Positions 1 through 21,240 of a DNA stretch of 64,000 nt are shown here, in pieces. Numbering within the stretch: the stretch's first letter is position 1; the number at the start of each line of letters is the position of its first letter. A program made the translations under genes and the position numbers. Origin of the DNA: Streptosporangiaceae bacterium NEAU-GS5 (GTDB taxonomy: Bacteria > Actinomycetota > Actinomycetes > Streptosporangiales > Streptosporangiaceae); NCBI GenBank assembly GCA_017592665.1, contig JAGFNW010000031.1, positions 1 through 64,000 on the forward strand. Reading direction: 5' to 3'. The notes below the pieces were generated by a model that saw only the letters and a list, made by a program, of their open reading frames with translations, was not told the DNA's origin and did no database searches.

Positions 1-427
1 CGCACATCAACGCCGCCACCCGAAACCGGCACCACATACGCCACCAACCGCCGATCACCAGGACGATCCTCACGCACCACCACCGCCGCCTGCGCCACCG
101 ACCCATGCAGCACGAACGCCGACTCCACCTCACCAAGCTCGACCCGAAACCCCCGCACCTTCACCTGATCATCAACCCGGCCCACGAACTCCAGCACCCC
201 ATCACGGCGCCACCGCACCACATCCCCCGTCCGATACATCCGCGACCCCACCCCGAACGGATCAGCCACAAACCGCACCGCCGACAACCCCGGCCGCCCC
301 CAATACCCCCGCGCCAACCCCGAACCCGCCAAATACAACTCACCCGCCACACCAGCAGGCACCGGCCGCAAACCCTCATCCAGGACAAAAACCCGCTTAC
401 CCACAAGAGGCCGCCCGATCGGCACGG
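1..427. repeat. Copy 1 of a near-identical NRPS adenylation-domain segment
   Basis: Bases 1-427 match 3385-3811 at a constant offset of 3,384. I see only two mismatches, at 391 and 399. The match runs off the left edge, so the true length is larger. It encodes the C-terminal part of the adenylation domain, from just after the specificity-determining core. To the right of 427 the two copies diverge abruptly. Confidence 0.95.
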
Positions 428-3400
428 GGTTGACGTGGCGGCCGGGCTCGCACTCCCAGATGACGGCACCGATGGTGGCCTCGGTCGGGCCGTAGCCGTT
501 GAACAGCCGACGGCCCACGGACCACTCGGCGGCGAGGCCGGGCGGGCACGCCTCCCCGCTCACGGTGAGGACCATTCCTTCCGGCAGCGAGTTCGGAGGG
601 AGTTCCGCCACCACGGCGGGGGGCAGTGCCACATGGGTGGCGCCTTGCCGTACGACCAGGTCGATCAGCTCTTGGCCGAGCGGGCGCTCGGGCGGCGGAA
701 GGATCAGCGTGGCTCCGGTGAGCAACGCGCCGAACGTGTCCCAGAGCGCCGCGTCGAAGCTGGCGGAGACGAGTTGCAGAACGCGGCTCCCGGGTGCCAC
801 CCCCAGACGCTCCGCCTGTGTGGCGGCCACGTCTCCGACGCCGGCGTGCGGGATCACCACACCCTTGGGCCGCCCGCTGGAGCCGGAGGTGTAGATGACG
901 TAGGCCGGGGTCAGATCTGTCGGCGCGGCGATCCGGTCCTGGTCGCCTGGATCGTGGGCCGGCTGTGCGGAGAGCACGTCCGAGATGGTGTCCAACGCCA
1001 CGACTGGCGTGCCTTCCACCGGCGGGAGGCGGTCGGCCCATTCCGTCATCGTCAGGACCAGCGTCGGCCGGGCGTCGGCAAGCATGTGGCGGATGCGCTC
1101 GGCTGGATAGAGCGGATCGATCGGCAGGAAGGCGGCTCCGGACTTGAGCGTCGCCAGCATCGCCACCACCCACGGCACGGAGCCGGGCAGGGCGATCGCG
1201 ACCAGGTGTTCTGGACCTGCTCCCTGGCGAATGAGGTGATGCGCGAGCCTGTTGGCGCGCTCGTTGAGTTCGCCGTACGAGCATGTGCCGTCGTCGTCGG
1301 CCAGGGCGACGGCGGCTGGGGCGGCATGCGCCTGCCGTTCGAACAGCTCGTGAACGAGGCCCGCGTACGCAGGCGCCGACTCCGCGTGGTTCCACTCGCT
1401 CAGCAATCGCGCCCGCTCGGCCGCATCGAGCGTGTCCACCGCGTTGATGGGCAGGTCTGGATCCGCCAGAAGCCGATCGAGCAGCAGCATCAGCCGATTC
1501 GCGATGTCCGTCACGGTGTCGCGGTCGAAGAGGTCGTGGCTGTATTCAAGGTCGCCGGCCAGCCCGGCGGGCGCGCCGTCGTGGTCGTACTGCTCGCTCA
1601 GCGCCAGCGCGAGGTCGAACTTGGCCATGGTCAGGTCGATCTTGTACGGCTCGGCCTGCACGCCGGGCAGTGCCCAGGACTGCCGGGGGCTGCTGTCGAG
1701 GGTCAGCATCACCTGGAACAGCGGGTGATGGGCGGTGGTCCTGGCCGGATTGAGCGCCTCCACCAGACGCTCGAAAGGCAGATCCTGATGGGCATAGGCA
1801 TCCAGATCGTGGTGACGCACCCGGCCGATCAGCTCACGGAAACTGGGCCGGCCACCGGTGTCGGTGCGCAACACGAGCGTGTTGACGAAGAAACCGACCA
1901 GATCATCCAAAGCGTCATCGTCGCGGCCCGCGACCGGAGTGCCGATCGGGATGTCATTGCCCGCGCCGAGGCGCGTCAGCAGCGCCGCCAGCCCAGCCTG
2001 CACCACCATGAACAGCGTCGCGTCGCACTCGCGTGCCAGCTTCACCAACCGGCTGTGCAGACCGACGTCGAAGACCACCTGCACGCGATCACCGCGATAG
2101 CCGGCCTTGACCGGTCGAGGCCGATCGGTGGGCAGCTCCAACTGCTCGGGCAGACCGGCGAGGCGGTGCCGCCAGTAGGCCAACTGCCGGGCCAGCAGGC
2201 TGTCGGGGTCGTTGGCTAATCCCAGCAGGTCGCGCTGCCAGATCGCGTAGTCGGCGTACTGCACCGGCAGCGGCTCCCACTCCGGCGCACGGCCGGCGCG
2301 GCGGGCTGTGTAGGCCTCGCTGAGATCACGCCACAACGGGCCCATCGACCAGCCGTCAGCCGCGATGTGATGCATCACCAGCACCAGCACCGCCTCATCG
2401 GGGGCAATGCGTAGCAGCCACGCGTGCATCGGCACCTGCCCGGCCAGATCGAACACCTGCCCAGCCGCCCGCGCCACCGCCTCCGCCACCGCCTCCGCCA
2501 CCGCATCGGCCCGCCCATCCTGTGGGGTCGACTCCGCTAGCCCGGCCCGCGCCACCGCGTCGGTCTGCCCGGCCTGTGGGGTCGCCTCGGTCTGCCCGGC
2601 CTGTGGCATCGCCACGGCCAGCTCGGGCTGTGGCAGCGCTTCGGCCAGTCCGGGTTGCGGTGCCGCCTGGCCTAGTTCGTCGGTTCCTATCCAGCGGACG
2701 GTCAGGAGTGAGCCGAGGCTTTCGATCGGCCAGACCTTCTGCGCCGGTTCGCCGTCTCGGTCGACGAAGCTGGTGCGCAGGGCCTCATGCCGGCCGACCA
2801 CATCGGCCAACGCCAAGCCCAGCGCCTGCTCATCCACCACGCCCGACAGGCGTACCGCGACCGGCACGTTGTAGGTGGCGCTCGGGCCCTCCCACTGCGC
2901 CAGGAACCACAGCCGACGCTGCGCGAACGACACCGGCTCCAACCCCGACCGCGGCACTGCCACCACCGCCGGACGCAACGGACCCCGCCCATCCAGGCGC
3001 CCATCCAGCTGCCCGTCCAACCGGGCCACCAGACCCGCGACCGTCGAGGCCTGGAACAACTCTCGGATGCCCACCTCGACGCCCAGCACCGACCGCACCC
3101 GGGCGATCAACCGCATGGCCGACAGCGAGTGTCCGCCGAGGTCGAAGAAGTCGTCGTCGATCCCCACCCCGGACACGCCCAGGACCTCGGCGAACAGCCC
3201 GCACACCACTTCTTCGCGCGGCGACCGGGCGGCCCTGCCACCCGCGATCACGCCGGCCGACGGAGCCGGCAGCGCCTTGCGGTCGACTTTGCCGTTCGGG
3301 GTCAGCGGCAACCCATCCAAGGCCACCACAGCGGCCGGCACCATATAACCCGGCAACCGATCCCGCACGAACCCCGACAACTCACGCACATCAACGCCGC

Positions 3401-6110
3401 CACCCGAAACCGGCACCACATACGCCACCAACCGCCGATCACCAGGACGATCCTCACGCACCACCACCGCCGCCTGCGCCACCGACCCATGCAGCACGAA
3501 CGCCGACTCCACCTCACCAAGCTCGACCCGAAACCCCCGCACCTTCACCTGATCATCAACCCGGCCCACGAACTCCAGCACCCCATCACGGCGCCACCGC
3601 ACCACATCCCCCGTCCGATACATCCGCGACCCCACCCCGAACGGATCAGCCACAAACCGCACCGCCGACAACCCCGGCCGCCCCCAATACCCCCGCGCCA
3701 ACCCCGAACCCGCCAAATACAACTCACCCGCCACACCAGCAGGCACCGGCCGCAAACCCTCATCCAGGACAAAAGCCCGCTTGCCCACAAGAGGCCGCCC
3801 GATCGGCACGGTGAACTGCCTGACCGGCTCCAGAATGCGGTGGAACGTCGTGAAGCCCATGCTCTCCGCGGGGCCGTAACCGTTGAGGAGCACCAGGTGC
3901 GGGAACTTCTCCCGGGCGCGGTTGACGTGGTCGCGGGAGGCCGCGTCGCCGGCGGTCATGGCGATGCGCAGCCCGCCGAACACGTCGGGCCGCTCGTCCA
4001 GCAGGAGGTTGAACAGCCCGGCCGACAGCTGCAGCACCGTGACCTCGTGCCGGGTCACGAGCCGAGCCAGCTCATCCATGTCCACCCGCTGGCCGGGCAG
4101 CAGGACACATGTGCCGCCGTGCAGCAGCGCGCCGAACAGTTCGAGGCCGAAGGCGTCCCATGACACCGGCGACGACTGCAACCAGACATGCTCAGGACCG
4201 AAGTCGACGTAGTCCTGCGATAGATACGTGCTGGTCAGCGCCCGATGCGAGGCGGCAACGCCCTTGGGGACGCCGGTGGACCCGGAGGTGTACATGACGC
4301 ACGCCACGTCGTCCGGCGCCGGCCGGATGCCGAGGCCGTCGCGGGGAAGGGCCGCGATGGCGGCCGCGTCGGCGTCGAGGCGCAGCAGGTGGAACCTGCC
4401 GGGCAGATCCGCATCGAGCCGATCGGCCAGCGTGCTGTCGGACACCACGATCCGGGCGTCCAGCGCGGCGTGCCGCGCCGCCGGATAGGCCGGGTCGAGC
4501 AGGCTGTAGGCCGCGCCCGCCTTCAGCACTCCCAGCAGCGCCTCCACCATCGCCGTGCCACGCTCGAGGTGAACGCCGACGAGATCGCCCGGCTTGACGC
4601 CGGCGCCGCGCAGGTATCCGGCGATCTGGTTGGCCCTGGCGTCGAGCTCGGCGTAAGCGACCCGGCGATCTCCGTCGATCAGGGCCACGGCGTCCGGACG
4701 CGCCTGTGCTTGTCTCTCGAACACCTCGTTCACGGACGCCGCGACGCCCTCGCCGGCCGTACGGCCGCTCCATTCGGTCACGATGCGACGTCGCTGCTCC
4801 TCATCGAGCAGCGGGATGTCGCCGACACGAGCGCCGGCACCGGCGCTGAGGGCGCCGGACAGGAAGGTCAGCAGGTGATGCCGGTGCGCGGCGAGGTCGT
4901 CGCCGTCGAAGGCGCCTGGATTGACGTCGAAGTCGAGCCGCAGGCCCTCGCCCGTGGACCGGTGGTCGGCGACCACCTGGAGGTCCTCGACACGGCCGGT
5001 CATGAAGTGGCGGAGCTCGGCCGTACAGGGGCCGAACGTCACACGCTGGTCGAACCGCATGATGTTGAGCAGCGGGCCGAAGAACATCGAGTCGTCTCCT
5101 GGCAGGGCCAGGTTGCGGCGCAGTTCCTCGACCCGATAGCGCTGGTGGCGCAGGACGTCCGACACCTCCGCCGACACATGCGCGACGAGCTGGTCCAGGC
5201 TCATGTCCTGCCGCAGGCGCAGGCGCAGCGGCAGGACCTTGGACATCATTCCGGGCACCCGCCGAGCCGATCCGGCGTGCCGGCCGGTGACAGGCAGGCT
5301 CAGCACCACGTCGCGGCTGCCGGTCACGCGGTGCAGGTAGGCGGCGAACAGGGCGATCAGAAGGCGCGACCAGTCCACGCCGAGCTCGTCGGCGAGATCC
5401 TGAAGCCGCCGGAAGTCGGGTGCCGACAGCCGTGTGCTCTCCCGCAGGATGGCGACCGAGGGTTCGGCCGAGCGCGCCGTCAGCCGCAGCGGCGCGGGCC
5501 GGTCGGCGAAGCGGGCCCTCCAGTACGCCCGGTCGGCGTCGCCGTCGGCCGAGCCGAGATAGCGCCGCTCCTCCTCCACGAGCTCGGTGAGCGGCGGGAA
5601 CACCCCATCGGACGCGGGGATGCCCTGATACAGCTCGGCCACCCGCCGCACGAACAGCGCGTGCCCGAAACCGTCCATGACGATGTGGTGCATCCGCCAG
5701 TACCACAGGTGCCGCTGCTCGCCGACCCGGAAAAGAACCTCCCGGAACAATGGGTCGCCATCGATGTCCACCGGGCGCTCGACGTCCTCGCGCATGGCGG
5801 CCTCGGCCGCGCCCTCCGGGTCGTCCTCGCCGCACAGGTCGACGACGGTGAAGAGCGGCTCCAGGTCCGGCATGACCTCCTGGTACGGCTCGCCGGATCC
5901 GTCCACGCCGAACCGCACCCGGAGGGCGTCGGTCTCGGCCACCGCCCGCCGCAGGGCGGAGCCGAACGCGTGGACGTCCAGCGGGCCGTCGATCTGCAGA
6001 TATTCGCCCCAGTTCATGGTCTCGCCGGCCGATCCGAGGCGGATGGCGAGCCAGATCCCATACTGGGCGGACGTGAGCGGCAGACGGGTGATGTGCGGGT
6101 CGGTCGGCAT
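1..6110 (-). CDS. Nonribosomal peptide synthetase, modules C-A-T-C-A..., 3' end outside window
   Basis: The reading frame opens at an ATG at 6110 and runs unbroken off the left edge, so at least 2,036 residues are visible. Approximate domain order: condensation 10-440 (HHIVMDG near 138), adenylation 460-960 (core A3 [11 protein letters not shown] near 607), carrier protein 965-1035 (LGGHSL, phosphopantetheine serine near 993), condensation 1050-1530 (HHIAADG near 1245), adenylation from about 1545 ([11 protein letters not shown] near 1739). No epimerase, methyltransferase or thioesterase is visible. Aligned by eye to GrsA, the pocket residues read D-A-L-Q-M-A-G-G-F for module 1 and D-A-W-A-T-S-G-I-G for module 2; neither matches a code I can assign. 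The start lies 19 bp after the halogenase stop, with only a weak Shine-Dalgarno sequence. Because the protein begins with a C domain, the first building block is either an acyl starter or comes from another synthetase. Module 2 shares near-identical DNA with module 1 and carries a minisatellite. Confidence 0.95.
2499..2660. repeat. 27-bp in-frame minisatellite inside the second condensation domain
   Basis: Six consecutive 27-bp units can be read: 2499-2525, 2526-2552, 2553-2579, 2580-2606, 2607-2633 and 2634-2660. On the coding strand they give nine-residue repeats such as [45 protein letters not shown] and [10 protein letters not shown] degenerate AEAV-rich stretch continues to about 2472. 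The two central units are the most alike. The insert falls just before the conserved FDLA strand that leads to HHIAADG. Confidence 0.9.
3385..3811. repeat. Copy 2 of the adenylation-domain segment
   Basis: Partner of bases 1-427, in the same orientation. It lies in the module 1 adenylation domain, between the specificity core (residues upstream of 3812) and the carrier protein. Such identity in DNA with many free third positions implies recent duplication or gene conversion between modules. Confidence 0.95.
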
Positions 6111-6129
6111 GGGTGTAGGCACTTTCGCG

Positions 6130-8187
<2,058 letters not shown>

Positions 8188-8191
<4 letters not shown>

Positions 8192-9447
8192 GCCTTCTCC
8201 TGCTCCATGCGCGGTCGCGCCGCCCGTTCGCCGACCGTGTCACCCAGGTCGACAGGGTCGCCGCGTTCGGTCAGGGACAGCAGCGGGGCGGTGGCGGCCG
8301 TGCAGGTCACGGCCATGACCACGAACGCGGCGTACACCGGGCCGGTGAGGATCCCCGCCTCGTGTCCGGCCTGCAGGACGATGAGCTCGGTCAGGCCTCG
8401 GGTGTTGAGCAGCACGCCCAGGCGGAGCGCCACCCGCTTCGGGCGGCCTGCCAGCCGGGCGCCCACGTACCCGCCGCCCAGCTTGGCGGCCGCGGCCACG
8501 GCCGTGACCACCACCGCAAGCCACCACGTCTGGGGTGCGTGGCCGGAGAACACGGTCAGGCCCGTGGTGACGAAGAACGCCGGCACCAGCCGCGCTCCCA
8601 CCTTGCCGACGCCGCGGATCATGCCGGCCCACGCCGTTGTCCGCATCGGCGGCAGCGCCAGCCCGACCAGGACCGCGCCCAGCACGTGGGTCATCCCCCA
8701 GGCGGCGGTCAGCTCGGCGGCGCCGACCGCGGCCGCGCCGACGACCACCGCCGTCGCGATGGGCGACAGGGCGCACAGCGCGCCCAGCGGCCGGGCGAGC
8801 GGACGGCGCAGCACGAGCGCGACGAGCACGCCGGCTCCCGTCACCGTGATCGTGCCGAGAACGCCGCTCCGGCCGCCGGCCAGCCCGATCGCCAGGGCCA
8901 GCAACGGCCAGGACAGCACGTCGATGCAGAGCGCGGCGGCCATGGCGGTCGGACCTGCCGGGCCGGTGGCGCGGTCGTCCAGGATCCGGGCCAGCGCCGG
9001 AACCGCGGTGATCGCCAGGGCCACCGCGACCAGCAGCACGAAGGCCGCGACCGGCGTCCCGGCGGGCGCGCCCGCTCCCATGAGCGGCAGCGCCATGGCC
9101 AGCGCGGCGCCGGCGGCCAGCGGAATGATGTAGGCGCCCGCCACGATGCGGCCGATCCCGCTCACGGACATGTGCCGCGCCTCGCCGCGCAGATCCCAGG
9201 TCACCCGGACCAGGTAGATCGCCAGGCCGACGTTCCCCACCACGCTCAGAGTTGCGCGCACGGCCGGCGTGAGCAGTACCTCCGCCGCGGGCCCGCCGAA
9301 CGCCAGCACCAAAGGCCCCGCCACCAGGCCGGCCACGATCTCCCCGATGACCGGCGGCTGCCGCAGCGCCCGGGCGGCGATCGCGCCGCAGTAGGCAACG
9401 CCGAACACGGCGGCCAACGCCACCGCGACGCGCATCAGATCTGTCAT
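8188..9447 (-). CDS. Kef/CPA2-type cation:proton antiporter
   Basis: A 419-residue integral membrane protein with about a dozen hydrophobic helices, matching the Na+/H+ exchanger domain of the CPA2 family (opening LRQPPVIGEIVAGLVAGP, later LNTRGLTELIVL). These proteins exchange monovalent cations for protons. Both ends overlap neighbours by 4 bp, so it is locked into the biosynthetic operon. Its role here is unclear: product export, resistance or ion homeostasis during production are all possible. I see no ATP-binding cassette transporter in the visible part of the cluster. Confidence 0.85.
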
Positions 9448-10736
9448 GACGCGCCTCCGTCTTGTACGGGCCCCTCACCCGGATGCGGCCAGATGTCCTC
9501 GGCCGACAGCGCGCCGGGCCGATACCTGCCCAGGGCGCTGATCAGGAGCCGCATCTCCAGCTCCAGGCAGCGCACGAGGCGGACCAGGCCGTCGGCGTCG
9601 GATTCGTCCACGGCCAGCAGCGCCGCCCGGCCGAGGCCCACCGCGCGAGCGCCCAGGGCCATGCATTTCACCGCGCGGGCGCCCTCCCACATCCGGCCGG
9701 AGACCAGCAGGCAGCGGGAGCCGGGCCGCACGCGGCCGAGGCAGTCGGCCAAGGGCAGGCCCACATGCTGGAGGAAGGAGGTCGGGGCCCAGCCGGTGCC
9801 CGCCTCGGCCCCGTCCACGGTGACCGCGTCGGCGCCCTCGGCCCACGCCAGGCGTGCGGCCTCGCCGACGTCGCGGGTGGGCGGCAGCTTGATCCAGATC
9901 CGCGCCCTCGGGAAGTTGTTGCGCAGCAGCCGGATCTGGGCGCGCAGGATCTCCTGCGTGAAGGTGCCGGGCGTGGAGCTGCGCAGCAGGCCTGTGGCGG
10001 CGCCCCCATCGGCGCCCACATCGGGGTCCACGTCGAGGTCCACGTCGGAATCGACCAGATAGCGCCCGGCGAGCCGGGCCCCGTCCGTGCCGTTCACCAT
10101 GGTCATCCCGCCGAGCCCGGGCTTGGCGCCCTGGCCGAGCTTGAGCTCGAAGGCCAGGCGCCCGGAGTCGAGCAGGGGCCGCGTGGCCGGGTCGCTGTAG
10201 ATCCGGTTCCACAGCTCGGCGTCGGCGTCCTCGGTGCTCTGCTGCACCACGACGCCGCCCAGCCCGCGTTTTTCCGCGGCCAGGTATGTCTCGACGCGCT
10301 GTGCCAGTGAGCGGGCCCCGTCGCGGGTCCGGTAACCGTCCGCCGCGGCGACGTTCTCCCCGATGACCATCGGCACGCCGAGGCAGGCGGCCTGCCGGGC
10401 TACGGCGGCGCCGATGCGGGCCGCGGCGGTCGTGGAGCCGAGCGCGGAGACGTACAGCGGCAGGGTCGAGCGCAGCCCGCCGATGTCGGTCTCCAGCGCC
10501 ACGTCCTGATAGCTGGGCTCACGGCCGAGCTCGACGAGCTTGGCGAGCCGCTCGGGCGTGAAGATGGGAGGGACGAGACGCATGTGATCCAGCCGGTCAC
10601 CGGAGGCGGCCGCGGGAGGCTGGCCGTAAACGGCGCTCCCATAGTCGGCGACCGGGGGGAACACGGCGGCCGACCCTGTCCGGGCCCGGAGGCGTACCTC
10701 GTCCTGTGGAAACTCGGCGGCGGTCAGCAGTGTCAT
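9444..10736 (-). CDS. Stand-alone FMN glutamate-synthase-like protein
   Basis: A 430-residue protein equivalent to the FMN-binding synthase domain of GltB. Visible family signatures are PLYVSALGSTT, GENVAAADG, KLGQGAKPGLGG and GADAVTVDGAEAGTGW. The amidotransferase domain is absent. The cysteine cluster that binds the 3Fe-4S centre in true glutamate synthases is also missing; only an isolated cysteine remains near the C terminus. In streptolydigin biosynthesis SlgE3, a ferredoxin-dependent glutamate synthase, works with glutamate mutase SlgE1-SlgE2 to supply 3-methylaspartate, so the same role is likely here. Another possibility is an N-substituted glutamate synthase or other FMN amino-acid enzyme. 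Start and stop overlap the neighbours by 4 bp each. Confidence 0.8.
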   Translation of the reverse strand: MTLLTAAEFPQDEVRLRARTGSAAVFPPVADYGSAVYGQPPAAASGDRLDHMRLVPPIFTPERLAKLVELGREPSYQDVALETDIGGLRSTLPLYVSALGSTTAAARIGAAVARQAACLGVPMVIGENVAAADGYRTRDGARSLAQRVETYLAAEKRGLGGVVVQQSTEDADAELWNRIYSDPATRPLLDSGRLAFELKLGQGAKPGLGGMTMVNGTDGARLAGRYLVDSDVDLDVDPDVGADGGAATGLLRSSTPGTFTQEILRAQIRLLRNNFPRARIWIKLPPTRDVGEAARLAWAEGADAVTVDGAEAGTGWAPTSFLQHVGLPLADCLGRVRPGSRCLLVSGRMWEGARAVKCMALGARAVGLGRAALLAVDESDADGLVRLVRCLELEMRLLISALGRYRPGALSAEDIWPHPGEGPVQDGGAS

Positions 10737-11734
10737 CGCTCGACCTCTCCCGGCAGTTTCGGGAAGGCGCAGACCTGCCACACCTCGTCGGCGCCGGTGA
10801 TGTAACGGACGAGCCGCTCCAGGCCGATGCCGAAGCCGGCGCTCGGGCGGATGCCCTCGCGGATCAGGTCCAGATACCAGCCGTATTTGGCGGGGTTCTC
10901 GCCCGTCTCCCGCATGCGCGCGACGATCCTCGCCGGCTCGTGCTCGCGTTCGGCGCCGCTGGCCAGCTCGCCGAACCCGTCCGGGGCGATGAGGTCGAAG
11001 TTGCGCAGCATGCCGGGGGTACGCGGGTCCTCGCGGTCGTAGAACCCACGCGAGCCCTTTGGGTAGTCGGTGACGAAGAACGGGCGGCCGGCCTTGCCCG
11101 ACAGCACGCGCTCGCCCTCCCACGTGATCTCCGCGGTCGCGCTCTGCGCGACGCCCAGCCCGGTCAGCTCGGCGACGGCCGCGGCGTGCGTCATCCGCCC
11201 GAAGGGCTGCGCGAGCAGCTCGGTGAACGCGCCCGGGTCGCGGCCCAGCCGCTCCAGCTCCGCCGGCGCGTCTCGGACCACGGCCGCCACGGCGCCGGTC
11301 ACCAGGGCCTGGGCCAGCTCCATGGCCTCCTCGCGGGTGGCGTCGGCGATCTCCACGTCGATCTGGTGGAACTCGACAAGGTGCCGTCCCGTGGCGGCCG
11401 TCTCCGGCGGCTCAAGGCGCAGGTTCGGCGCGATGCAAAAGATCTTGTCGAAGGCCAGCAGGGCCGCCTGCTTGTACAGGATCGCGCTGGTCATGATCTT
11501 GTAGGTGGCGCCGTAGTAGTCGACGTCTGCCTGCTTGGCCCCCCGTACACCGGGATCGGTGACCGGCCCCACCAGCGGCGCCGGCAGTTCGACGAAGCCG
11601 CGGCCGGCCAGCGTGACCCGCACGCTCGCGAGGACGTGCTGCTGGACGATCAGTGCGGCGCGGGTGCGGTCCGAGGTCAGGTGGTCGCGATAGTTGCGCG
11701 GATCAAGCCGGGTGAAGGTGGGCACGTCGCTCAT
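10733..11734 (-). CDS. Class II aminoacyl-tRNA-synthetase-like asparagine synthetase (AsnRS/AspRS catalytic core)
   Basis: A 333-residue catalytic core of the AspRS/AsnRS group without the N-terminal OB-fold that binds the anticodon. Class II landmarks are present: VEFHQIDVEIAD (motif 2 region), GFYDREDPR, and GFGIGLERLVRYI (motif 3). Archaeal proteins of this build (AsnRS paralogues, asparagine synthetase A type) adenylate the beta-carboxylate of aspartate and amidate it. Because it sits between glutamate mutase and a glutamate-synthase-like gene, its natural substrate is probably 3-methylaspartate, giving 3-methylasparagine or an activated acyl adenylate. That is inference. It overlaps both neighbours by 4 bp. 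Confidence 0.8.
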   Translation of the reverse strand: MSDVPTFTRLDPRNYRDHLTSDRTRAALIVQQHVLASVRVTLAGRGFVELPAPLVGPVTDPGVRGAKQADVDYYGATYKIMTSAILYKQAALLAFDKIFCIAPNLRLEPPETAATGRHLVEFHQIDVEIADATREEAMELAQALVTGAVAAVVRDAPAELERLGRDPGAFTELLAQPFGRMTHAAAVAELTGLGVAQSATAEITWEGERVLSGKAGRPFFVTDYPKGSRGFYDREDPRTPGMLRNFDLIAPDGFGELASGAEREHEPARIVARMRETGENPAKYGWYLDLIREGIRPSAGFGIGLERLVRYITGADEVWQVCAFPKLPGEVER

Positions 11735-13029
11735 CGGTAGGTCCCATCGGGCGTCGGGATGGAGGCCGGGGCCGCGCCGGACGGAGCGGCGTCGGACCGG
11801 TCGCGGACATGGCGCAGGGCGGCCAGCAACTCGGCCGCGCTCACGCCGGCGGCGGCGCCGCGCACCGGCTCGGGCACGGGCAGGGATCCGGTGTCGGCCC
11901 ACACGAGACGGCCGTCGCCGTCGATCCGGCCCGCGGTGCGACCGGCGTTGTCGGGGTGAAGGCAGTAGGGGACGTCCAGGTAGCCCTTGCCGAACGCGGC
12001 CAGCAACGCGGCGCCGACGTCGTCGTGCAACGACAGTACGGCTTCCACCAGCGCCGTCGCCTCGGCCAGCAGACCGGTATCGGGCACGTCCGCCGGGCCT
12101 AGCCGGGGCGTCGCCGCGGCCGACGCGGCGGCGTGGCGCAGCGCGTCGGCGTTCTCCTCGATGGTGGGGATGCGGTCGGCCTCGGCCGCGGTCTTGACGA
12201 TGAGCCGCTCGCAGCCGCCCCGCACCGCGAGCCGCGCCGCCGCGGCGAGCAGGGCGTCCGCGCCACCGCGGCTGCGCGGATACAACCCCATGTACGCGTA
12301 CACGACGACGTGCCACGTCACGCCCGGCAAGAACCGGGCCGCGAGCGCCCGCAGCGCCGCCAGCGCCTCCAGGTCCTGCTCCGGGTGCACCTGCTGGGCG
12401 TAGCTGAGCGAGACGCAGCGCAGGCCGTGCTGGACGAAGAAGAGCGCCTCCAGCACGCTCACCGCCACCAGCAGACCGGGCGGGCAGAGCTGGCCGAGCA
12501 GACAGCCGCCGAAGGTCTCCAGGTGGGGTTCCACGCCCTTGCCCCGCAGCCTGCCGAGCAGCTCGCAGGCCCGTTTCCAGCTGCTCACCGACACCGTGAG
12601 CGGGGACCGCCCGTACGGCAGGCAGTAGGAGACCGGCCCGCCTTCGGAGGCGCCGATCCCCAGGCGTACGAGAGCGTCGAAGATGCGCTCCGGGGCGGGC
12701 GAGCCGTGCCGTACCTGGATCGGGAAGTGCGGGTCGACGACGCCGGCCAGCACCGCGCGGGTGAGGGCCGGCGGGTGGAGCAGGATCGGATAGCCGTTGA
12801 GCGCGACGCCGTCGTCGAGCGCGCGACGGCCGGCCGCCTGCTCGCCGAGCCTGGTGTAGCTGTCCAGCGTGATCGTGCCGACCGTCGCGGCGGGCACCCG
12901 CCGGGTGGCGAGGAGCCCGGCCCGCATCCGCGCAGGGTCGGAGAATCCCATCCTCGGCTGCACCACGAGCCGTCCTCTGGCGTGCGCGTCGGCCACGAAC
13001 CGCCCGAGCGCCGAGCGCGGCGGCGTCAT
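11731..13029 (-). CDS. Glutamate (methylaspartate) mutase large (epsilon) subunit
   Basis: A 432-residue protein of the MutE/GlmE family, the TIM-barrel subunit that binds glutamate and adenosylcobalamin and, with the small subunit, rearranges L-glutamate to (2S,3S)-3-methylaspartate. Conserved stretches include RLVVQPRMGFSDP at the N terminus, YPILLHPP, QVRHGSP, EGGPVSYCLPYGR and VKTAAEADRIPT. It is slightly shorter than catabolic clostridial enzymes (about 480), as is usual for antibiotic-cluster forms. Its ATG overlaps the small-subunit stop (TGATG) and its stop overlaps the next ATG. A very long open frame continues upstream over the small-subunit gene but is not family-like. Confidence 0.92.
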   Translation of the reverse strand: MTPPRSALGRFVADAHARGRLVVQPRMGFSDPARMRAGLLATRRVPAATVGTITLDSYTRLGEQAAGRRALDDGVALNGYPILLHPPALTRAVLAGVVDPHFPIQVRHGSPAPERIFDALVRLGIGASEGGPVSYCLPYGRSPLTVSVSSWKRACELLGRLRGKGVEPHLETFGGCLLGQLCPPGLLVAVSVLEALFFVQHGLRCVSLSYAQQVHPEQDLEALAALRALAARFLPGVTWHVVVYAYMGLYPRSRGGADALLAAAARLAVRGGCERLIVKTAAEADRIPTIEENADALRHAAASAAATPRLGPADVPDTGLLAEATALVEAVLSLHDDVGAALLAAFGKGYLDVPYCLHPDNAGRTAGRIDGDGRLVWADTGSLPVPEPVRGAAAGVSAAELLAALRHVRDRSDAAPSGAAPASIPTPDGTYR

Positions 13030-13497
13030 CACGCGCACGTCCTTGCCGGAAGCGACGCGACGAACCCGCAGAACCGCCGCACGTCCTCGTCGCCATCCCC
13101 GAACACGGCGGTGAAGCCGGCGTCGGCCAGACCAGCCCCCGCGCGGTTCTCCGGGCGGCCGAGGTCGAGCTTGCCGCCGATGACGACGGGGACAGTGGCC
13201 AGCCCGGGCGTGCGCCTCAGCAAGCGGACCGCGCGTGCGCCGTCGACGTGGCCGTGCCCGTTCACGCTGCTGAGCACGACCAGATCGGGCCGGACGCGCT
13301 CGCACTCGGAGACGATCAGCGGGTCGGGCGCGCACGGCCCGAGGTTGACGACGTGACACCCCTGCTCGGCGAGCAGGAGTTGCAGGAAGACCAGATTCCA
13401 CGTGTGAGAGTCCGACGAGGTGCCCGACAGAACGACGGTGAGCCGCGGGGAATCCGGTGCCAGGAAAGCGGGAATTTCGCACCTCCAGCCAGGCCAT
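13029..13497 (-). CDS. Glutamate mutase small (sigma, B12-binding) subunit, apparent 1-nt frameshift near its start
   Basis: The frame encodes a B12-binding Rossmann subunit: LTVVLSGTSSDSHTWN carries the D-x-H pair whose histidine ligates cobalt, followed by GCHVVNLGPCAPDPL and VVIGGKLDL. The conserved frame has no ATG, GTG or TTG upstream of this motif before an in-frame stop at 13499-13497. Dropping one A from the AAA run at 13475-13477 (coding strand) would join an ATG at 13497 to the conserved frame, reading MAWLEVR-IPAFLAPDSP, which looks natural. The alternatives are a rare ATT start at 13475, behind a strong GGAGGT, or CTG at 13463. The protein ends with a 1-bp overlap into the large subunit. 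First gene of the operon. Confidence 0.82.
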
Positions 13498-13610
13498 CAC
13501 AACGACCATTCGGACGCTATGCGGCGCGAACTCGGGCGGTCGGCACTTGGGCCGGTAGTATCGCGGCAGTTTCGCCGACGGACCGGCAGCTCGTTTCCGC
13601 GGCCCGGCTC

Positions 13611-13651: not shown

Positions 13652-13846
13652 GTGGCCAAGGCTGACTCCGTGCAGATATTCAGAGGCAGGAAGCGTTTCG
13701 CGCGCAAATTGGGGTCGCTGTCGGCGCTCGCCGCGCTGGTGACGGCCGCACTCGTGTCGGCCACCGCGCTCGCGCCGCCGGATCACCCGCCGTCTCAGGC
13801 CGTGGCGCTGCCTCGGCCGTCGCCCTATCCGGTCCCCTGGCCGTGA
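13652..13846 (+). CDS. Possible small exported peptide
   Basis: A 64-codon ORF starting at GTG. The N terminus has a basic stretch (RGRKRFARK) followed by about 20 hydrophobic, alanine-rich residues ending in ATALA, a textbook Sec signal. The remainder is a proline-rich tail ending PYPVPWP. It is divergent from the glutamate-mutase operon, and its last 22 bp overlap the 3' end of the SARP gene on the other strand. No clear ribosome binding site was found; an internal GTG at 13670 is another possible start. No family recognised. Confidence 0.4.
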   Translation: MAKADSVQIFRGRKRFARKLGSLSALAALVTAALVSATALAPPDHPPSQAVALPRPSPYPVPWP

Positions 13847-16800
13847 TCGCCCGTCTCCTGGCGAGGATCCCGGAGTATGTTCAGGGCGATCTCGGCGCCC
13901 GCGGCGAGGAGATCGGCGGTGTCCTTCCCCGGGGGTGAGCAGGCGTCGATGCCGAGGCCCGTCTCCCAGCTCCGACACTCCGCTGCGGTGAAGGGCCACG
14001 AGCCGTATCCGGTGGATCCGCGGATCGCCGCGACCACCATCACCAGTTCGGCGGCGCGGGGGGCGCCGGCCTCGACGGCGAGCGCCGCGGCCAGGTGCAG
14101 CATCCGCAGCGCGACGGCCCGGTTGTTCCTGGTCAGGGCGTCGGGGATGGCGGCCGCCAGGTGACGTCCGGCGGCGACCCGGCGCCCGCGCCGCCAGTCG
14201 ATGTACGCCGCCAGCTCGGCGATCTCCTCGAGCAGGAGCTGGCGCTGCCCGCGCTCGCCCACCTCGCGGGCCTTGGCCAGCGGCTCGTCCGCCTCGTCCA
14301 GCGCGCCGGCGAGCACCCGCCCCCACGCCAGGCACAGCAGCGCGGAGGTGACCGCGTCGTGGGTCACCTCGGCGCGCAGCGTCAGGACGATTCCCGCCGA
14401 CCGGTCGGCCTCCACCAGGCGGCCGCCTCGGAGGGCGACGAGCGCCTGATACCAGTGGCAGAAGCCGAGCAGGCGCTGGTCGGATCCGGCCGCGGCGAAC
14501 GCCTGGCGCAGCGACTCCTGAGCCTCGGCGTCGTGATCGCGCCAGGCCAGGATGACCGCCGCCCCCGCGCAGGTGAAGGCGACGTGAGTGGGAATGCTGA
14601 GATCCTTCGCCACGGCGATCGCACGGCGGGCGGCGTCCGCGGCGTCCGCGTCGAGCAGCGCGTCACTGATCGAGGCCAGGCCCAGCATGATGTCGGCGTG
14701 GCGCGGCCGGTCGGCGGGAACCCGCATGTCGATCATGTCCAGCGCCCGGGTGAGGAGCGCGCGCGACTCCTCCAGCCGGGCGCCGACGTAGGCCAGGCGG
14801 CCCGCCCAATGCAGCAGTCGCAGCCACAGCGAGGGCGGCAGGCGATGCTCGTGGGCCAGGGCGAGCGAGGTCCAGCGGCGCAGCGACTCCATGAGGCCGG
14901 CCAGCCGATCCCATAACGGCCGGCCCGCGGTGAGCAGGCCGACGGCGTCGCAGAAGGCCTCCTGTGTCACGCCGGGCCGAAGGCCCCACTCCAGCGCGGC
15001 GCAGACGTCGGCCGACTCGGCGCGCAACCGGGCGAGCGCCGCCGCGCCCTCCTCGCCTGAATCCCCGGCGAGCAGCGCGTCGCTCAGCTCGCGGTAGAAC
15101 CGCAGGTGCCGGTCGCGTGCGGAATCCAGGTCGAGATCCTCGGCCAGCGACCGGCAGACGTCCCTGATCGGGACCAGCAGGCGGTAGCGGTACTCCTCGC
15201 TCCGGTCGACCTGCACCAGCGAGTGGTCGATCAGCACGCTCAGCATCCTGGTGACCTGATCGGGCGTCAGCGGCGCGAATCCGGCCACCCGCTCGGCGGC
15301 CGCGAGGTCGAAGCCGCCGGCGAAGACCGCGAGCCGGCACAGCAGCAGCGGCTCGTCGGTCTCCAGCAGGCTGATGCTCCACTGCACGGTGGAAGCCAGG
15401 CTGCGCTGGTGCGGCAGCCCGAGGCCGTCCGGCCGCCGCAGCACGCCGAGCCATCCGTCGATGCGTTGCAGCAGCGTGGCGGGTGAGATCGAGCGCAGCC
15501 GCCCGGTCGCCAATTCGATGCCGAGGGGCAGCCCGTCCAGGCGGCGGCACAGCTCGGCCACGACGGGCAGGCTGTCCGACAGGTCGAGTGACGGGAAGTG
15601 CTGCTCGGCCCGGCGCAGGTAGAGCTCGACGGCCGCGAATCCGGCGGGATCGGCGGCGTCCGCCGGAGGCACGGGCAGGGCCCGCAGCTCCCAGATCGCC
15701 TCGCCGGGGACGCCGACCGGGTGCCGGGAGGTGATGAGGATGCGGAGCCGGGCCGCGCTGCTGTGCAGCCGGTCGACCAGGGCGGCGACCGAGGCGGTCA
15801 CATGCTCGGCGTTGTCGAGGACCAGCAGCATGTCCTGATCGCGTACGGCCCGGGTCAGCGTCTCCATCGCGCCCGCCGAGCCGACCGGCGCGCCGAGCAG
15901 CGCGCACAGCACGCCCGCCATGACCTCAAGGTCTTCGGCGCCCCGGCCACCGGCCTGCTCGGCGGGCAGGGGGCCGAGCTCGGCCACCGCGACGCCGTCC
16001 GGGTGGCGCTCACCGAGCTGGTGGGCCACGGCCAGGGCGATCGAGGTCTTGCCCACACCACCGGGACCGGTGATCGTCACGACCCGCCCGTCGCCGACCA
16101 GCTCCGTCAGCCGCTTCAGGTCCTCGTCGCGGCCGACGAGCCCGCCGAGCATCGGATGCGGGCCGCGCCAGGTGACGGGCTCGATGGCGGTGACCGGCTG
16201 GTGCCGCCGTACGATGCGCCCGATCACCTCCTGATAGGAGTCGCGGAGCAGGGGCGAGGGATCGACGCCGAACTCGTCGGCGAGCCTGCGGCTGATCCCT
16301 TCATAGACCGAGACCGCTTCGGCCTCGGCGCCCGATTCCGCCAGGGCGAGCAGAAGCTGGGCGTGCAGGGGCTCGTTCAGAGGCTCGTCGGCGACCACCG
16401 CGCGCAGGCGGTCGATCACCTGGTCGACGGCGTGGCAGCGGCGCGCCGCCGCGACGGCGGCGATCGCCGCGAGCGTGCGTTCCTGGTTGGTGGCGCGCAC
16501 CCACGGATGCGTCTGCCAGGGGCCGGTCACCGCCCCCAAACAGGGGCCCCGCCACACGTCCAGCGCGTCCAGCCGCAGGCGTAGCTCGTCCTCTCCGGCG
16601 GAAGCCTTACCGGCCCGCTCTACCAGCGCGCGGAAGCGCAGCAGGTCGAGTTCGTCCTCACCGAGGCGCACGGAGTAGTAGCCGGGGCCGACGGTGTTGA
16701 GCCGCCCATTCCTCTCCCGGGTGGCCCTTCCCGGTTCGAGGACATCACGCAGGCGCCGTACGTACGTCTGGATGACGTTGACGCTGGAAGCCGGACCCTC

Positions 16801-16956
16801 GTCACCCCACACGAAATCCCTGATCTCATCGTGCGAGACCGGCCGACCGGCACGCAGCAGCAGCGCCGCAAGGACGCCCTGTTGCTTGTGCGGGCCCACG
16901 TCCAACTTCTCATCGCCTCGCCAGGCGCCCAGTGGACCGAGAACGCGGAGTTGCAC
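13825..16956 (-). CDS. AfsR/SARP-family transcriptional activator with NB-ARC and TPR regions
   Basis: A 1043-residue regulator. Residues about 5-100 form an OmpR-type winged helix, and 105-255 the bacterial transcriptional activation domain (ending DEFGVDPSPLLRD). An NB-ARC ATPase follows with Walker A GPGGVGKTS near 299 and LVLDNAEH as Walker B; the last 400 residues are TPR-like helices. Start is GTG at 16956 behind a GGGGG run. It lies between the biosynthetic operon and a second SARP gene on the same strand (50 bp apart), so it is probably the pathway-specific activator. Confidence 0.9.
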   Translation of the reverse strand: MQLRVLGPLGAWRGDEKLDVGPHKQQGVLAALLLRAGRPVSHDEIRDFVWGDEGPASSVNVIQTYVRRLRDVLEPGRATRERNGRLNTVGPGYYSVRLGEDELDLLRFRALVERAGKASAGEDELRLRLDALDVWRGPCLGAVTGPWQTHPWVRATNQERTLAAIAAVAAARRCHAVDQVIDRLRAVVADEPLNEPLHAQLLLALAESGAEAEAVSVYEGISRRLADEFGVDPSPLLRDSYQEVIGRIVRRHQPVTAIEPVTWRGPHPMLGGLVGRDEDLKRLTELVGDGRVVTITGPGGVGKTSIALAVAHQLGERHPDGVAVAELGPLPAEQAGGRGAEDLEVMAGVLCALLGAPVGSAGAMETLTRAVRDQDMLLVLDNAEHVTASVAALVDRLHSSAARLRILITSRHPVGVPGEAIWELRALPVPPADAADPAGFAAVELYLRRAEQHFPSLDLSDSLPVVAELCRRLDGLPLGIELATGRLRSISPATLLQRIDGWLGVLRRPDGLGLPHQRSLASTVQWSISLLETDEPLLLCRLAVFAGGFDLAAAERVAGFAPLTPDQVTRMLSVLIDHSLVQVDRSEEYRYRLLVPIRDVCRSLAEDLDLDSARDRHLRFYRELSDALLAGDSGEEGAAALARLRAESADVCAALEWGLRPGVTQEAFCDAVGLLTAGRPLWDRLAGLMESLRRWTSLALAHEHRLPPSLWLRLLHWAGRLAYVGARLEESRALLTRALDMIDMRVPADRPRHADIMLGLASISDALLDADAADAARRAIAVAKDLSIPTHVAFTCAGAAVILAWRDHDAEAQESLRQAFAAAGSDQRLLGFCHWYQALVALRGGRLVEADRSAGIVLTLRAEVTHDAVTSALLCLAWGRVLAGALDEADEPLAKAREVGERGQRQLLLEEIAELAAYIDWRRGRRVAAGRHLAAAIPDALTRNNRAVALRMLHLAAALAVEAGAPRAAELVMVVAAIRGSTGYGSWPFTAAECRSWETGLGIDACSPPGKDTADLLAAGAEIALNILRDPRQETGDHGQGTG

Positions 16957-17006: not shown

Positions 17007-18743
17007 TTAAACGGTCGCCGATCCCCCGTGCCACGGATCATCGACCGCGAAGTACAGGTCCGCCACCCGGCGGATGGGCGGCGAAATGCAGAAGCGATGC
17101 TCAGGGGAGGCGGCGCGCTGTACGAGCGAGTGATCGACGAGGTCTCCCAGGAGCATCGCGATGTCCCCGGCGTCGAGCCCGTGTCCGCCGGCGGACCGCT
17201 CGGCCTCTTCGAGCGTGAGCTCGTCGGGCAGCGCGACCAGCCGGGCGAACAGCCGCCGTTGCTCGGCCGTGAGCAGCTCCAGGCTCCGGCTGATGGGCCC
17301 GGCCAGGCCGGCGAGCGCCAGATCCACGGCACCGGACGGGCGAGCGGAGACGGGCCAGGACGCCGCCAGCCGCAACGCGAGCGGAAGCCCGTCGAGCCGG
17401 CGGCACACGTCCGCCACGGCGGGCAGATCCACATCGGCGGCCGAGCGTCCGGTGAACGCCAGGAACAGCGCCACCGCCGGGAAGGACGCGGCGCGTGCGA
17501 CCTCGCCCGGCGGCGGCACGGCCAGCGCGGAGATCTCGCGCACGTTCTCTCCCGGAAAGCCGAGGGGACGCCGTGATGTCACGACGATGCTCACTTCGGG
17601 GCAGCGATGCGCGAGCTCCGCGACGAGCCTGCCGCAGCCCAGCGGCACGTGCTCGGCGCCGTCGAGGACGAGCAGGAGCCGGTGCTCGCGCAGCTCGCGG
17701 ACGAGGGCCGTGACGGGCTGCCCGGACACTCCCGGCACGGACAGCACCGCCAGGACGGCTTCGGCCAGCGCCTCCAGTGTGACCATGCCACCGGCCTCGG
17801 GCGCGAAGGCCTCCAAGGCGACGAAGGCGCCGCCGCCCGGCTCCTCGTGGAGCAGGGCTCGGGCGATCGCCGTCTTCCCCACGCCGGGCGGGCCGACCAT
17901 GGTGATCGCCCGGTCTCGGGCGAGGGCCGGCCGGACGGCCGACAGCTCCGCGTCGCGCCCCACCAGCACGAGGGGCTCCACCCGGCCCTTGACCGAAGGC
18001 CGGAACCGCAGCGTTCGCTGGGCGAGCGTGGCCTGGTAGGCGGCCGCCAGCTCGGCGCCCGGGCCGACCCCGAGCTCGCTGCGCAGCCGGGCCCGGATGC
18101 GCTCGTAGGCGATCAGAGCCTCCGCCTGATGCCCGCCGCGCGCGTACATCCGGATCAGGCGGGAGTACACCCGCTCGTCCAGCGGCGCGATCAGCACGAC
18201 CCATTCGAGGAGGCGGGTCACCTCACCCGCCCCTTCGGCATGCTCGCAGTCGGCGTAGTCGATCGCGGCCTCGCACAGCTCGCGCTCCACCTCGACCAGC
18301 AGCGGGTGCGCGCGCAGCATCCCGCCAAGGTCTTCGCAGGGACGCCCCCTGACCTCGGCGAACGCCGCCGCGAGCAGGGCCCGGGGGCCCGCGCCGGCCT
18401 CTTCGGCCTCTTCGGCCCGAGCTCGCAGGCTCCGGAATCGCAGCAGGTCGACCTGCTCGGGGCCGACATCGAGGCGGTAGCCGGCCGCGTCGAGCACCAG
18501 CGTCGACCTACCGACCGCCCGGCGCAGCCGGCTCACGTAGGTCTGCACGAGGCCCGCCGCGTTGGCCGGAGGCTCGTCCCACAGGCAGTCGCGCAGGGTG
18601 CGGGCGAGCACCGGCTCCCCACCGGCGAGCAGGAGCACGGCCAGCACCGTGCGCTGCTTGACGGGACCGAGCGCGAGCTCCCGGTCGCCCTGCCAGGCCC
18701 TTACTGCGCCGAAAATCCTGAAATGCCGCTCACTGTCAGGCAC
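17007..18743 (-). CDS. Second SARP-family activator with NB-ARC domain, no TPR region
   Basis: A 578-residue protein from a GTG at 18743, chosen because AAGGG lies 7 nt upstream and the winged-helix domain begins at once (HFRIFGAVRAWQGDRELALGP). The order is DNA-binding domain, BTAD (ending SELGVGPGAELAAAY), then NB-ARC with Walker A GPPGVGKTA near 283 and LLLVLDGAEH. The sequence stops soon after the ATPase arm, so the TPR sensor found in the neighbouring protein is absent. Together they form a paired SARP locus next to the NRPS operon. A longer in-frame start at 18908 has no supporting signal. Confidence 0.88.
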   Translation of the reverse strand: MPDSERHFRIFGAVRAWQGDRELALGPVKQRTVLAVLLLAGGEPVLARTLRDCLWDEPPANAAGLVQTYVSRLRRAVGRSTLVLDAAGYRLDVGPEQVDLLRFRSLRARAEEAEEAGAGPRALLAAAFAEVRGRPCEDLGGMLRAHPLLVEVERELCEAAIDYADCEHAEGAGEVTRLLEWVVLIAPLDERVYSRLIRMYARGGHQAEALIAYERIRARLRSELGVGPGAELAAAYQATLAQRTLRFRPSVKGRVEPLVLVGRDAELSAVRPALARDRAITMVGPPGVGKTAIARALLHEEPGGGAFVALEAFAPEAGGMVTLEALAEAVLAVLSVPGVSGQPVTALVRELREHRLLLVLDGAEHVPLGCGRLVAELAHRCPEVSIVVTSRRPLGFPGENVREISALAVPPPGEVARAASFPAVALFLAFTGRSAADVDLPAVADVCRRLDGLPLALRLAASWPVSARPSGAVDLALAGLAGPISRSLELLTAEQRRLFARLVALPDELTLEEAERSAGGHGLDAGDIAMLLGDLVDHSLVQRAASPEHRFCISPPIRRVADLYFAVDDPWHGGSATV

Positions 18744-18949
18744 ACAGGCACCCTTCTCCGATCCGGTCGGCCGATGAATATGAGTCGACAAGTGCGCGGA
18801 TGCCTTGCGGAATAGGTCGCCCCAGCGCCAACAATAACCTCCGGAACTGGCCGCCAACAAGCGCCGAAGTCCTTTCTGTAGCGCCTCTGTATTCCATGCG
18901 CCGACCATTCCAGGAGTGTTTCAGTTTTATTCAAGGAGGCCCCACTTTG

Positions 18950-19000: not shown

Positions 19001-20391
19001 ATGCAGTCCACGGCAATAACCGATTCGGTGACCTTCTGAGGACGCAGCGGATCCGCAGGGGCATGACCCAGACCCAGCTCGCCGATCTGTCCACGATCAG
19101 CGTGCGGGCCATCCGCGACCTGGAGCTCGGCCGTACGGGCCGGCCGCGTTACGACACGACCCAGCTCATCGCCGAGGGCCTCGGCCTGATCGGGCGCGAC
19201 CGCACCGATTTCGACGCCGCGGCGGGGCACGCGGCCGCCGCCGACGCCTTCGAATTGATCCGCGACTCCGAATCCGCCCGCCCGCCCGCGTCGCTCGGCG
19301 CGATCGTCGGGCGCGAGGCCGAGACCGAGGCGCTGGCCGACATATTGACCTCGGCAGGCCGCCGGCTCGTGACCATCATCGGCCTGTCCGGGGTCGGCAA
19401 GTCGCGGCTCGCCCTCGAAGTGGCCGAGACCGTTTACCGCTCGCACGGGATCCCGGTGCTGTGGGCCGCGCCGCCGGGGACCGAGACGTCCTACCGGATC
19501 GCGCCCGCCCAGGATCAGCTGTCACATCTCATCCGCGACGCGCTGGACGGGCTGTTCGATCCTGACGGCGATGCCGCCGGCCGGCTCAGCACGCTGATCG
19601 GAGACCGGCGCATGGTGCTGGTGCTGGATGGATACGACGAGTCGCCGGGCCATGCCGACCAGGTGGTCTCGTTACTGCAGAAGTCGCATGAGCTGCGCAT
19701 TCTCCGTACCACGAGAACGTCGGGCGGCATTCCCGGCGAGCAGACGAGCCCGCTCGCGCCGCTGACCGTGCCGGAATCGGGCGACGGCCATTCCCCGACC
19801 GGGCTCGCGAAGATCGCGTCGGTGCAGATGCTGCTGAGCCACATCCGCATGGTGCGGCCGGAGTTCAGCCTGACCACGGCCAACTCGGAGGCGATCGCCG
19901 AGCTCTGCTGGCGCCTGGACGGCGTGCCGGCGGCCCTCGAGATGGCGGCCTCGTGGCTGCTGGTCTGCGAGCCGCAGGACCTGCTGGCGCAGGTGCGCGC
20001 CAACCCCTTCGAGGTGATCGGCCAGCCGGGTCACGACGGCGGGCCACAGCCCGGCTTGGGCGTCTCCCTGTCCGAGGCGATCGGCTCCCTGTCGGCGCCG
20101 GAGACGACGCTGATGGAGCACCTGACCAGCGCGGGGACGGGCATGTCGGTGGCGGAGATCGTTGAGGTGTCGGGCATCCCCGTCCCGACCTGCTGGGCGC
20201 TGGTCCGGCGGCTGCTCATGCACGGTGTGCTCAGGCAGGAGGGCAGCGGGACCATGCGGTTCCGCACGCTCAACCTCATCCAGTTCTTGCACGAACGCCG
20301 CCGCCGATTCACCGCGCCCTACCACGCCCTGTGCGGCGGATCCCTGAGCGAGGGGATCGAGCGGTACGCGGTCGCGACGTCCTTCGTATGA
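18997..20391 (+). CDS. XRE-family regulator fused to NB-ARC ATPase
   Basis: A 464-residue protein. An N-terminal helix-turn-helix (about residues 10-65, TQTQLADLSTISVRAIRDLE) is followed by a STAND/NB-ARC ATPase with Walker A GLSGVGKSR near 129 and VLVLDGYDES. It ends without a repeat sensor. I place the start at TTG 18997 behind GGAGGAG, because the helix-turn-helix begins about ten residues later. A GTG at 18916 in frame is possible but is not well placed behind a ribosome site. Transcribed divergently from the SARP genes and 25 bp upstream of the SDR gene, with which it probably forms an operon. Confidence 0.85.
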   Translation: MNAVHGNNRFGDLLRTQRIRRGMTQTQLADLSTISVRAIRDLELGRTGRPRYDTTQLIAEGLGLIGRDRTDFDAAAGHAAAADAFELIRDSESARPPASLGAIVGREAETEALADILTSAGRRLVTIIGLSGVGKSRLALEVAETVYRSHGIPVLWAAPPGTETSYRIAPAQDQLSHLIRDALDGLFDPDGDAAGRLSTLIGDRRMVLVLDGYDESPGHADQVVSLLQKSHELRILRTTRTSGGIPGEQTSPLAPLTVPESGDGHSPTGLAKIASVQMLLSHIRMVRPEFSLTTANSEAIAELCWRLDGVPAALEMAASWLLVCEPQDLLAQVRANPFEVIGQPGHDGGPQPGLGVSLSEAIGSLSAPETTLMEHLTSAGTGMSVAEIVEVSGIPVPTCWALVRRLLMHGVLRQEGSGTMRFRTLNLIQFLHERRRRFTAPYHALCGGSLSEGIERYAVATSFV

Positions 20392-20415: not shown

Positions 20416-21240
20416 ATGGGCACGCTGGACGGCAAGATCGCGCTCGTGTCAGGATCCGGGCGCGGCATCGGGCGCGCCATCGCGCTCAAGCTCGCCGGTC
20501 AGGGGGCTCAGGTCGTGGTCAACGGCCTCGACCCGGAGCGTGCCGAGGAGACGGTGCGCCTGATCAAGTCGGCGGGCGGCGACGCGGTCGCGGTGATCGG
20601 CAGCGTGACCGACGACGGTTTCGCCGAGCGGTTCGTGCAGACGGCCGTCGACACCTTCGGCGGGGTGGACATCGTGGTCAACAACGCCGGCCACACCTGG
20701 GACGGCGTGATCCAGAAGATGACCGACGAGCAGTGGGACGTGATTCTCGACGTTCATCTGAGAGCGCCCTTCCGCATCCTGCGGGCCGTGCAGCCCGTCA
20801 TGAGCAGCCGCGCCAAGCAGGAGCGCGCCCGTGGCGTCCGCGTCCACCGCAAGGTCGTGAACATCTCCTCCGTCACCGGCGTGGGCGGCAACGCCGGGCA
20901 GGTCAACTACGCCGCCGCCAAGGCCGGCCTCGGCGGGCTGACCAAGACCCTGGCCAAGGAATGGGCCAGATATCAGGTGAACGTCAACACGGTCGCATTC
21001 GGCTACATCCAGACGCGGCTCACGGCAGCCACGGCCGATGCCAACTCGACGATCAACGTCAACGGACGGGAGATCAGGGTCGGCGTCAACCCCGACTTCA
21101 TGGCCAGGCTCGAGCACCTGATCCCGCTCGGCCGGATGGGCACGCCGGAGGAGGCCGCCGGCGCCGTCTACCTGCTGTGCACCCCCGACTCCGACTACAT
21201 CACCGGCGAAGTCCTCGTCTGCGGCGGCGGCTACATCTGA
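20416..21240 (+). CDS. Short-chain dehydrogenase/reductase (FabG-like)
   Basis: A 274-residue classical SDR. It has the cofactor loop GSGRGIGRA (residues 13-21), the NNAG motif, the catalytic serine in NISSVTG, and the YAAAK catalytic pair. It resembles 3-oxoacyl-ACP reductases, with an unusual insertion before the active serine (SSRAKQERARGVRVHRK). GAAAGGA precedes the ATG. Its position directly after the cluster regulator suggests that it could modify a fatty acyl starter or an amino-acid side chain of the peptide, but it could equally mark the cluster edge. Confidence 0.9.
   Translation: MGTLDGKIALVSGSGRGIGRAIALKLAGQGAQVVVNGLDPERAEETVRLIKSAGGDAVAVIGSVTDDGFAERFVQTAVDTFGGVDIVVNNAGHTWDGVIQKMTDEQWDVILDVHLRAPFRILRAVQPVMSSRAKQERARGVRVHRKVVNISSVTGVGGNAGQVNYAAAKAGLGGLTKTLAKEWARYQVNVNTVAFGYIQTRLTAATADANSTINVNGREIRVGVNPDFMARLEHLIPLGRMGTPEEAAGAVYLLCTPDSDYITGEVLVCGGGYI

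Follow-up and report, generated by a model that had tools for sequence, protein, structure and literature searches.

Several described systems share part of the gene set analysed here. In the streptolydigin producer S. lydicus, according to a genome paper, slgE1-E3 supply 3-methylaspartate and the AsnRS-like SlgZ takes part in forming the tetramic acid (PMC5357945). From gene content (deoxysugar genes, a P450 and an MbtH-A protein) and species, we infer that locus L112 of S. lydicus, in which a mutase cassette lies beside an A domain with code DALQIGGGF, is the streptolydigin cluster. Its slgE1, slgE2, slgE3 and SlgZ match our locus in mutase subunits, GltS-like protein, AsnRS-like ligase and DALQ-type A code, but streptolydigin, a tetramic acid, is assembled with a polyketide and a sugar, and L112 showed no halogenase, TDO or capreomycidine genes. 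Chlorotryptophan and methylasparagine in one NRPS product are already known from omnipeptin, a metagenomic depsipeptide with beta-methylasparagine and 6-chlorotryptophan (PMC6710260). Omnipeptin differs from our predicted product in having 11 residues, among them hydroxytyrosine and hydroxymethylproline; the paper leaves kynurenine unmentioned and capreomycidine is not among the residues. With five modules here against 11 residues, identity of the two clusters is unlikely. The accessible part of the lipopeptin paper (PMC10172682) describes methylasparagine and beta-hydroxyglutamine, as predicted here, in an eight-residue antifungal lipopeptide, and reports neither chlorine nor capreomycidine. 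Capreomycidine pathways (VioC/VioD, CmnC) resemble ours in a VioC-like hydroxylase and a VioD that scores above its equivalog cut-off, but go with other residues; the module set found here is also unlike that of cyclofaulknamycin. Finally, the chlorokynurenine pathway of taromycin has a tryptophan halogenase and a reductase, as here, and a tryptophan dioxygenase and kynurenine-type A domain to which our TDO-like gene and Kyn-like A code may correspond. Taromycin itself belongs to the daptomycin-type lipopeptides and contains 3-methylglutamate and a Ca-binding motif.

The window, 64,000 nucleotides of Streptosporangiaceae bacterium NEAU-GS5, starts at base 1 of contig C53, within the second A domain of an NRPS. 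A first-pass annotation had described an eight-gene NRPS operon at this end, and all eight genes were found, on the minus strand, read right to left and mostly overlapping their neighbours by 4 bases. They are transcribed in the order GlmS, MutE, AsnRS-like asparagine synthetase, GltS-like FMN protein, CPA2 antiporter, flavin reductase, tryptophan halogenase and NRPS. Identities were assigned by Pfam, NCBIfam and PDB comparison, which bore out the claim that one NRPS operon combines a tryptophan halogenase and its reductase with a glutamate mutase and an aaRS-like enzyme that forms asparagine. The proposed extent, 1-13509, was nearly right: position 13509 coincides with an over-long ORF in the frame of MutE, whose start lies near 13029, and the operon runs past the window edge onto contig C57. 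GlmS is in a different frame from MutE. Its start is most likely a rare ATT codon six bases past a GGAGG, which gives an N-terminal length equal to that of the Nonomuraea thailandensis orthologue. The antiporter may serve export or self-protection.

Table 1. Features of the cluster within the window.
Feature	Position	Strand	Remarks
Contig end	1..242	.	241/242 identical to C57:78514-78755; NRPS continues through this join
NRPS modules 1-2: C1-A1(DALQMAGGF)-T1-C2-A2(DAWATSGIG, cut by contig end)	3..6110	-	open at contig end
FAD-dependent free-tryptophan halogenase	6130..7671	-	PF04820, 495 bits
Flavin reductase, halogenase partner	7694..8191	-	PF01613
CPA2-type Na+/H+ antiporter	8188..9447	-	orthologue 69% in N. 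thailandensis
FMN/glutamate-synthase-like protein (GltS-like, SlgE3-like)	9444..10736	-	putative glutamate supply
AsnRS-like asparagine synthetase A (SlgZ-like)	10733..11734	-	NF005052, 436.5 bits, cut-off 368
Glutamate mutase E (epsilon) subunit, MutE	11731..13029	-	PF06368, 270 bits
Glutamate mutase S (sigma) subunit, GlmS, B12-binding	13029..13475	-	PF02310, 38.4 bits, cut-off 32.1
SARP/AfsR-type regulator	13825..16956	-	kept beside cassette in N. thailandensis (70%)
Second SARP-type regulator	17007..18908	-	63% in N. thailandensis
Helix-turn-helix-like regulator	19063..20391	+	called by N-terminal sequence; 73% orthologue in N. thailandensis cluster
FabG-like 3-oxoacyl reductase	20416..21240	+	similar SDR in clusters of both relatives

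The first-pass annotation had advised extending the locus to the left. There, C57 completes the NRPS and adds genes assigned to capreomycidine, hydroxyglutamine and a dioxygenase. A1 and A2 are identical over 427 bases at the contig break, which accounts for the assembly having broken there. The joined NRPS reads C-A-T / C-A-T / C-T / C-A-T / C-A-T-TE, and no E domain was recognised in it. In N. thailandensis and Sphaerisporangium corydalis, too, the NRPS has two complete modules followed by one whose A domain is reduced to a remnant, and this agreement in module order makes the join structurally sensible; since the overlap is only 242 bases of a repeated region with one mismatch, some room is left for a missing module. 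On C57, 3' of the NRPS, lie genes for VioC-like, VioD-like and TDO-like proteins, MbtH, a type II thioesterase (TEII), TauD and a free A-T didomain, followed by a luciferase-like oxidoreductase, a KAS III and an MFS exporter and, beyond the exporter on the opposite strand, a crotonyl-CoA carboxylase/reductase-like gene (CCR). A cluster of ~42 kb spanning C57 and C53, with the window holding its right half, is the best explanation of these data.

In N. thailandensis an orthologous cluster has the complete set of genes, with the operon order unchanged (biosynthetic genes 69-85% identical). That of S. corydalis is related, with no antiporter in the operon and a larger NRPS; it lies on two contigs, the second half being on another contig than the operon. 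A codes of modules 1, 2 and 4 are conserved or nearly so in all three clusters, whereas both relatives have more modules than are found here, and their last residues differ: Thr-Thr type in N. thailandensis (DFWSVGMVH twice) and a non-standard VIWQVTADD type in S. corydalis. The identical last two codes of N. thailandensis suggest a recent module duplication. Its NRPS (L178-L180, G299:C1) is split: the operon holds a 780-residue A-T-TE remnant, and an NRPS of 6089 residues lies ~17 kb away. In the terminal modules of S. corydalis (L077-L078, L182) the codes VIWQVTADD and VIWQVTSDD lack Asp235, which suggests a non-alpha-amino acid substrate.

We propose, with a probability of about two in three, that the product of the cluster is a short nonribosomal peptide, chlorinated and probably N-acylated, assembled by the following steps. 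GlmS and MutE would turn glutamate, supplied by the GltS-like enzyme, into 3-methylaspartate, which the AsnRS-like ligase would amidate to 3-methylasparagine for loading by module 1. The halogenase and reductase would chlorinate free tryptophan at C5 or C6, and the TDO-like enzyme would open the ring of the chlorotryptophan to give chlorokynurenine for module 2. The free A-T protein would carry glutamine for hydroxylation by the TauD oxygenase while bound to the carrier, and the hydroxyglutamine would then pass to module 3, which lacks an A domain; the type II thioesterase may be what transfers it. The VioC-like and VioD-like enzymes would convert arginine to capreomycidine for module 4, module 5 would add a fifth residue, and the TE would release the chain; C1 may receive a short acyl starter made with the KAS III, CCR and FabG-like genes. 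Genes, motifs, domain order and synteny are observed here, and the substrates and product are predicted from them. The cluster is real, conserved and undescribed; each building-block pathway is known, and the four-way combination is apparently new. We put at even odds that it represents a new small family, acyl-MeAsn-ClKyn-OHGln-Cap-X..., in the Streptosporangiaceae, with four non-proteinogenic residues at positions 1-4, the third hydroxylated on a free carrier and passed to an A-less module. In the open-access literature, where a failure to find is weak evidence of absence, we found no compound joining chlorokynurenine or methylasparagine to capreomycidine, nothing on the pairing of mutase and halogenase, and no described product with all of methylasparagine, chlorokynurenine, hydroxyglutamine and capreomycidine. 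If our reading is correct, four rare amino-acid pathways are joined in one cluster, whose peptide is absent from the searchable literature.

Module 3 is a bare C-T module. The free A-T didomain has the code DAQDYGLVD, which we take to be of Gln type, and TauD and TEII genes are constant neighbours of this A-Gln protein. Further clusters with the A-Gln/TauD/TEII cassette, in genomes G031, G239 and G263, also have A-less modules; such a module was present in 6/6 of the cassette-bearing clusters that had enough NRPS sequence. This co-occurrence is support, though not proof, for hydroxyglutamine being delivered in trans, and module 3 is probably fed in this way. The free A-T, TauD and TEII proteins might instead provide a starter unit, passing hydroxyglutamine to C1, with module 3 loaded by another A domain or skipped. 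C1 does resemble the first condensation domains of EntF/MxcG type that accept from a free carrier, and in capreomycin an A-less module is known to be loaded by the A domain of another module; but in G031 and G239, which carry the cassette as well, an A-less module likewise lies inside the NRPS, and we consider a starter role improbable, at something like one chance in five. If our reading is right, the present cluster offers a clean system for studying the transfer of hydroxyglutamine onto A-less modules, which occur in six clusters. The G031 (L081-L082) and G239 (L088-L089) clusters also encode a three-module NRPS, C-A(DALQMAGGF)-T / C-T / C-A-T-TE, together with methylasparagine and Gln/TauD/TEII cassettes and a VioC-like gene, and appear to represent a related family of smaller peptides.

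For module 2, the first-pass annotation had expected halotryptophan as the final residue. The halogenase is closest in the PDB to PyrH and then SttH, and keeps GGGTAGW, WxWxIP and the catalytic Lys and Glu; Trp-5 and Trp-6 halogenases score alike against it, so that PDB comparison does not separate C5 from C6. The TDO-like protein reaches the Pfam TDO cut-off (170 bits) and falls below that of NCBIfam (277 vs 391 bits), and its gene is kept in all three clusters. TDO homologues are common in the class, and a homologue screen did not set NRPS-linked ones apart. No kynurenine formamidase was present among the cluster genes examined. The A2 code, DAWATSGIG, is identical at 6/9 positions to the Kyn code DAWTTTGVG (published in full as DAWTTTGVGK) and more distant from the CDA Trp code DGWAVASVC. 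Because of the TDO-like gene and the Kyn-like code, we favour chlorokynurenine over halotryptophan, and chlorotryptophan is probably converted before it reaches module 2. Chlorotryptophan could also be the module 2 residue itself, the TDO-like gene acting later on the peptide or elsewhere. The TDO-like protein is divergent, with a Thr (shared with a group of TDO-like proteins) at what we take to be the position of the classical TDO His, and omnipeptin pairs 6-chlorotryptophan with methylasparagine; the retention of the gene in the three clusters and the similarity of A2 to the Kyn code nonetheless make this unlikely, slightly more so than a starter role for hydroxyglutamine. Sampled members of the TDO-like group (L050:7573-8394, L185-L195) have Thr, Ser or Gly at the presumed distal-His position; since Thr is found in most sampled TDO-like proteins, we no longer regard it as specially adapted to chlorotryptophan.

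The evidence for methylasparagine at module 1 starts with the mutase. In the alignment to the Clostridium cochlearium structure (PDB), the Arg, Glu, Tyr and Lys lining the active site, residues whose roles we assume here, are conserved in MutE, and the B12 motif of GlmS retains its DxH (SDSHTWN). Both subunits pass the Pfam cut-offs and miss the NCBIfam equivalog cut-offs. The AsnRS-like ligase adjoins the mutase and GltS-like genes, and we scanned 84,980 species genomes with this protein, obtaining 212 loci, of which the best 80 were examined. Exactly GlmS-MutE-AsnRS-like-GltS-like, among the genes tested, was found at 67 of these 80. This is thus a common cassette among the best 80 of 212 loci, usually without a halogenase; for the mutase, GltS-like and AsnRS-like genes, which S. 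lydicus has too, the earlier statement that no cluster holds the whole set is not supported. A search of plasmid records returned only matches to the mutase genes, at about 72-74% identity. The A1 code DALQMAGGF is identical in our cluster, N. thailandensis and S. corydalis, and the DALQ code was absent from all other A domains read in this genome. Most likely, then, the cassette makes 3-methylasparagine for module 1, and a peptide containing it, one of the products first suggested, is the likely one. The DALQ-type code proposed for 3-methylasparagine would be directly testable.

The prevalence of the mutase cassette without a halogenase (in the best 80 of 212 loci) could mean that the two sets of genes serve separate products and merely adjoin. 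Against this, halogenase and mutase share one overlapping operon and the module 1 and 2 codes match both precursors. Moreover, among the best 80 loci, halogenase and reductase lie near the cassette only in N. thailandensis and S. corydalis, where the arrangement is kept with a halogenase of 84% and 72% identity, respectively. We regard separate products as very improbable. Least probable of all, if only just, is the chlorinated, calcium-binding acidic lipopeptide with free 3-methylaspartate that had also been suggested: friulimicin does obtain its 3-MeAsp through GlmA/GlmB, and the group has a chlorinated member in taromycin, but none of A1, A2, A4, A5 and the free A domain has an Asp or Gly code, no FAAL and ACP pair occurs among the cluster genes scanned, and the AsnRS-like enzyme points to the amide.

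Module 4 fits capreomycidine. The VioD-like protein scores above the cut-off for capreomycidine synthase (TIGR03947, 487.3 vs 390.9 bits). The VioC-like protein is below that of TIGR03946 (367.7 vs 418.6 bits) and just over that of GntD, a model for a related cyclic-arginine hydroxylase (355 vs 345), and is closest in the PDB to the CmnC/VioC structures. Two positions of the A4 code, DVEELGVVT, are acidic, as a guanidine substrate would require, but the code differs from DLAESGAVD, the Arg-type code in cyclofaulknamycin. The cluster genes examined include no carrier protein for an acyl starter. The A5 code, DVYSIAMVH, partly resembles that for Thr, DFWSVGMVH, and module 5 differs between the relatives. 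Another NRPS cluster of the source genome (L008, L011, L016; G000 contig C117) has repeated DVFSVAAFY-type codes, which we presume may specify piperazate.
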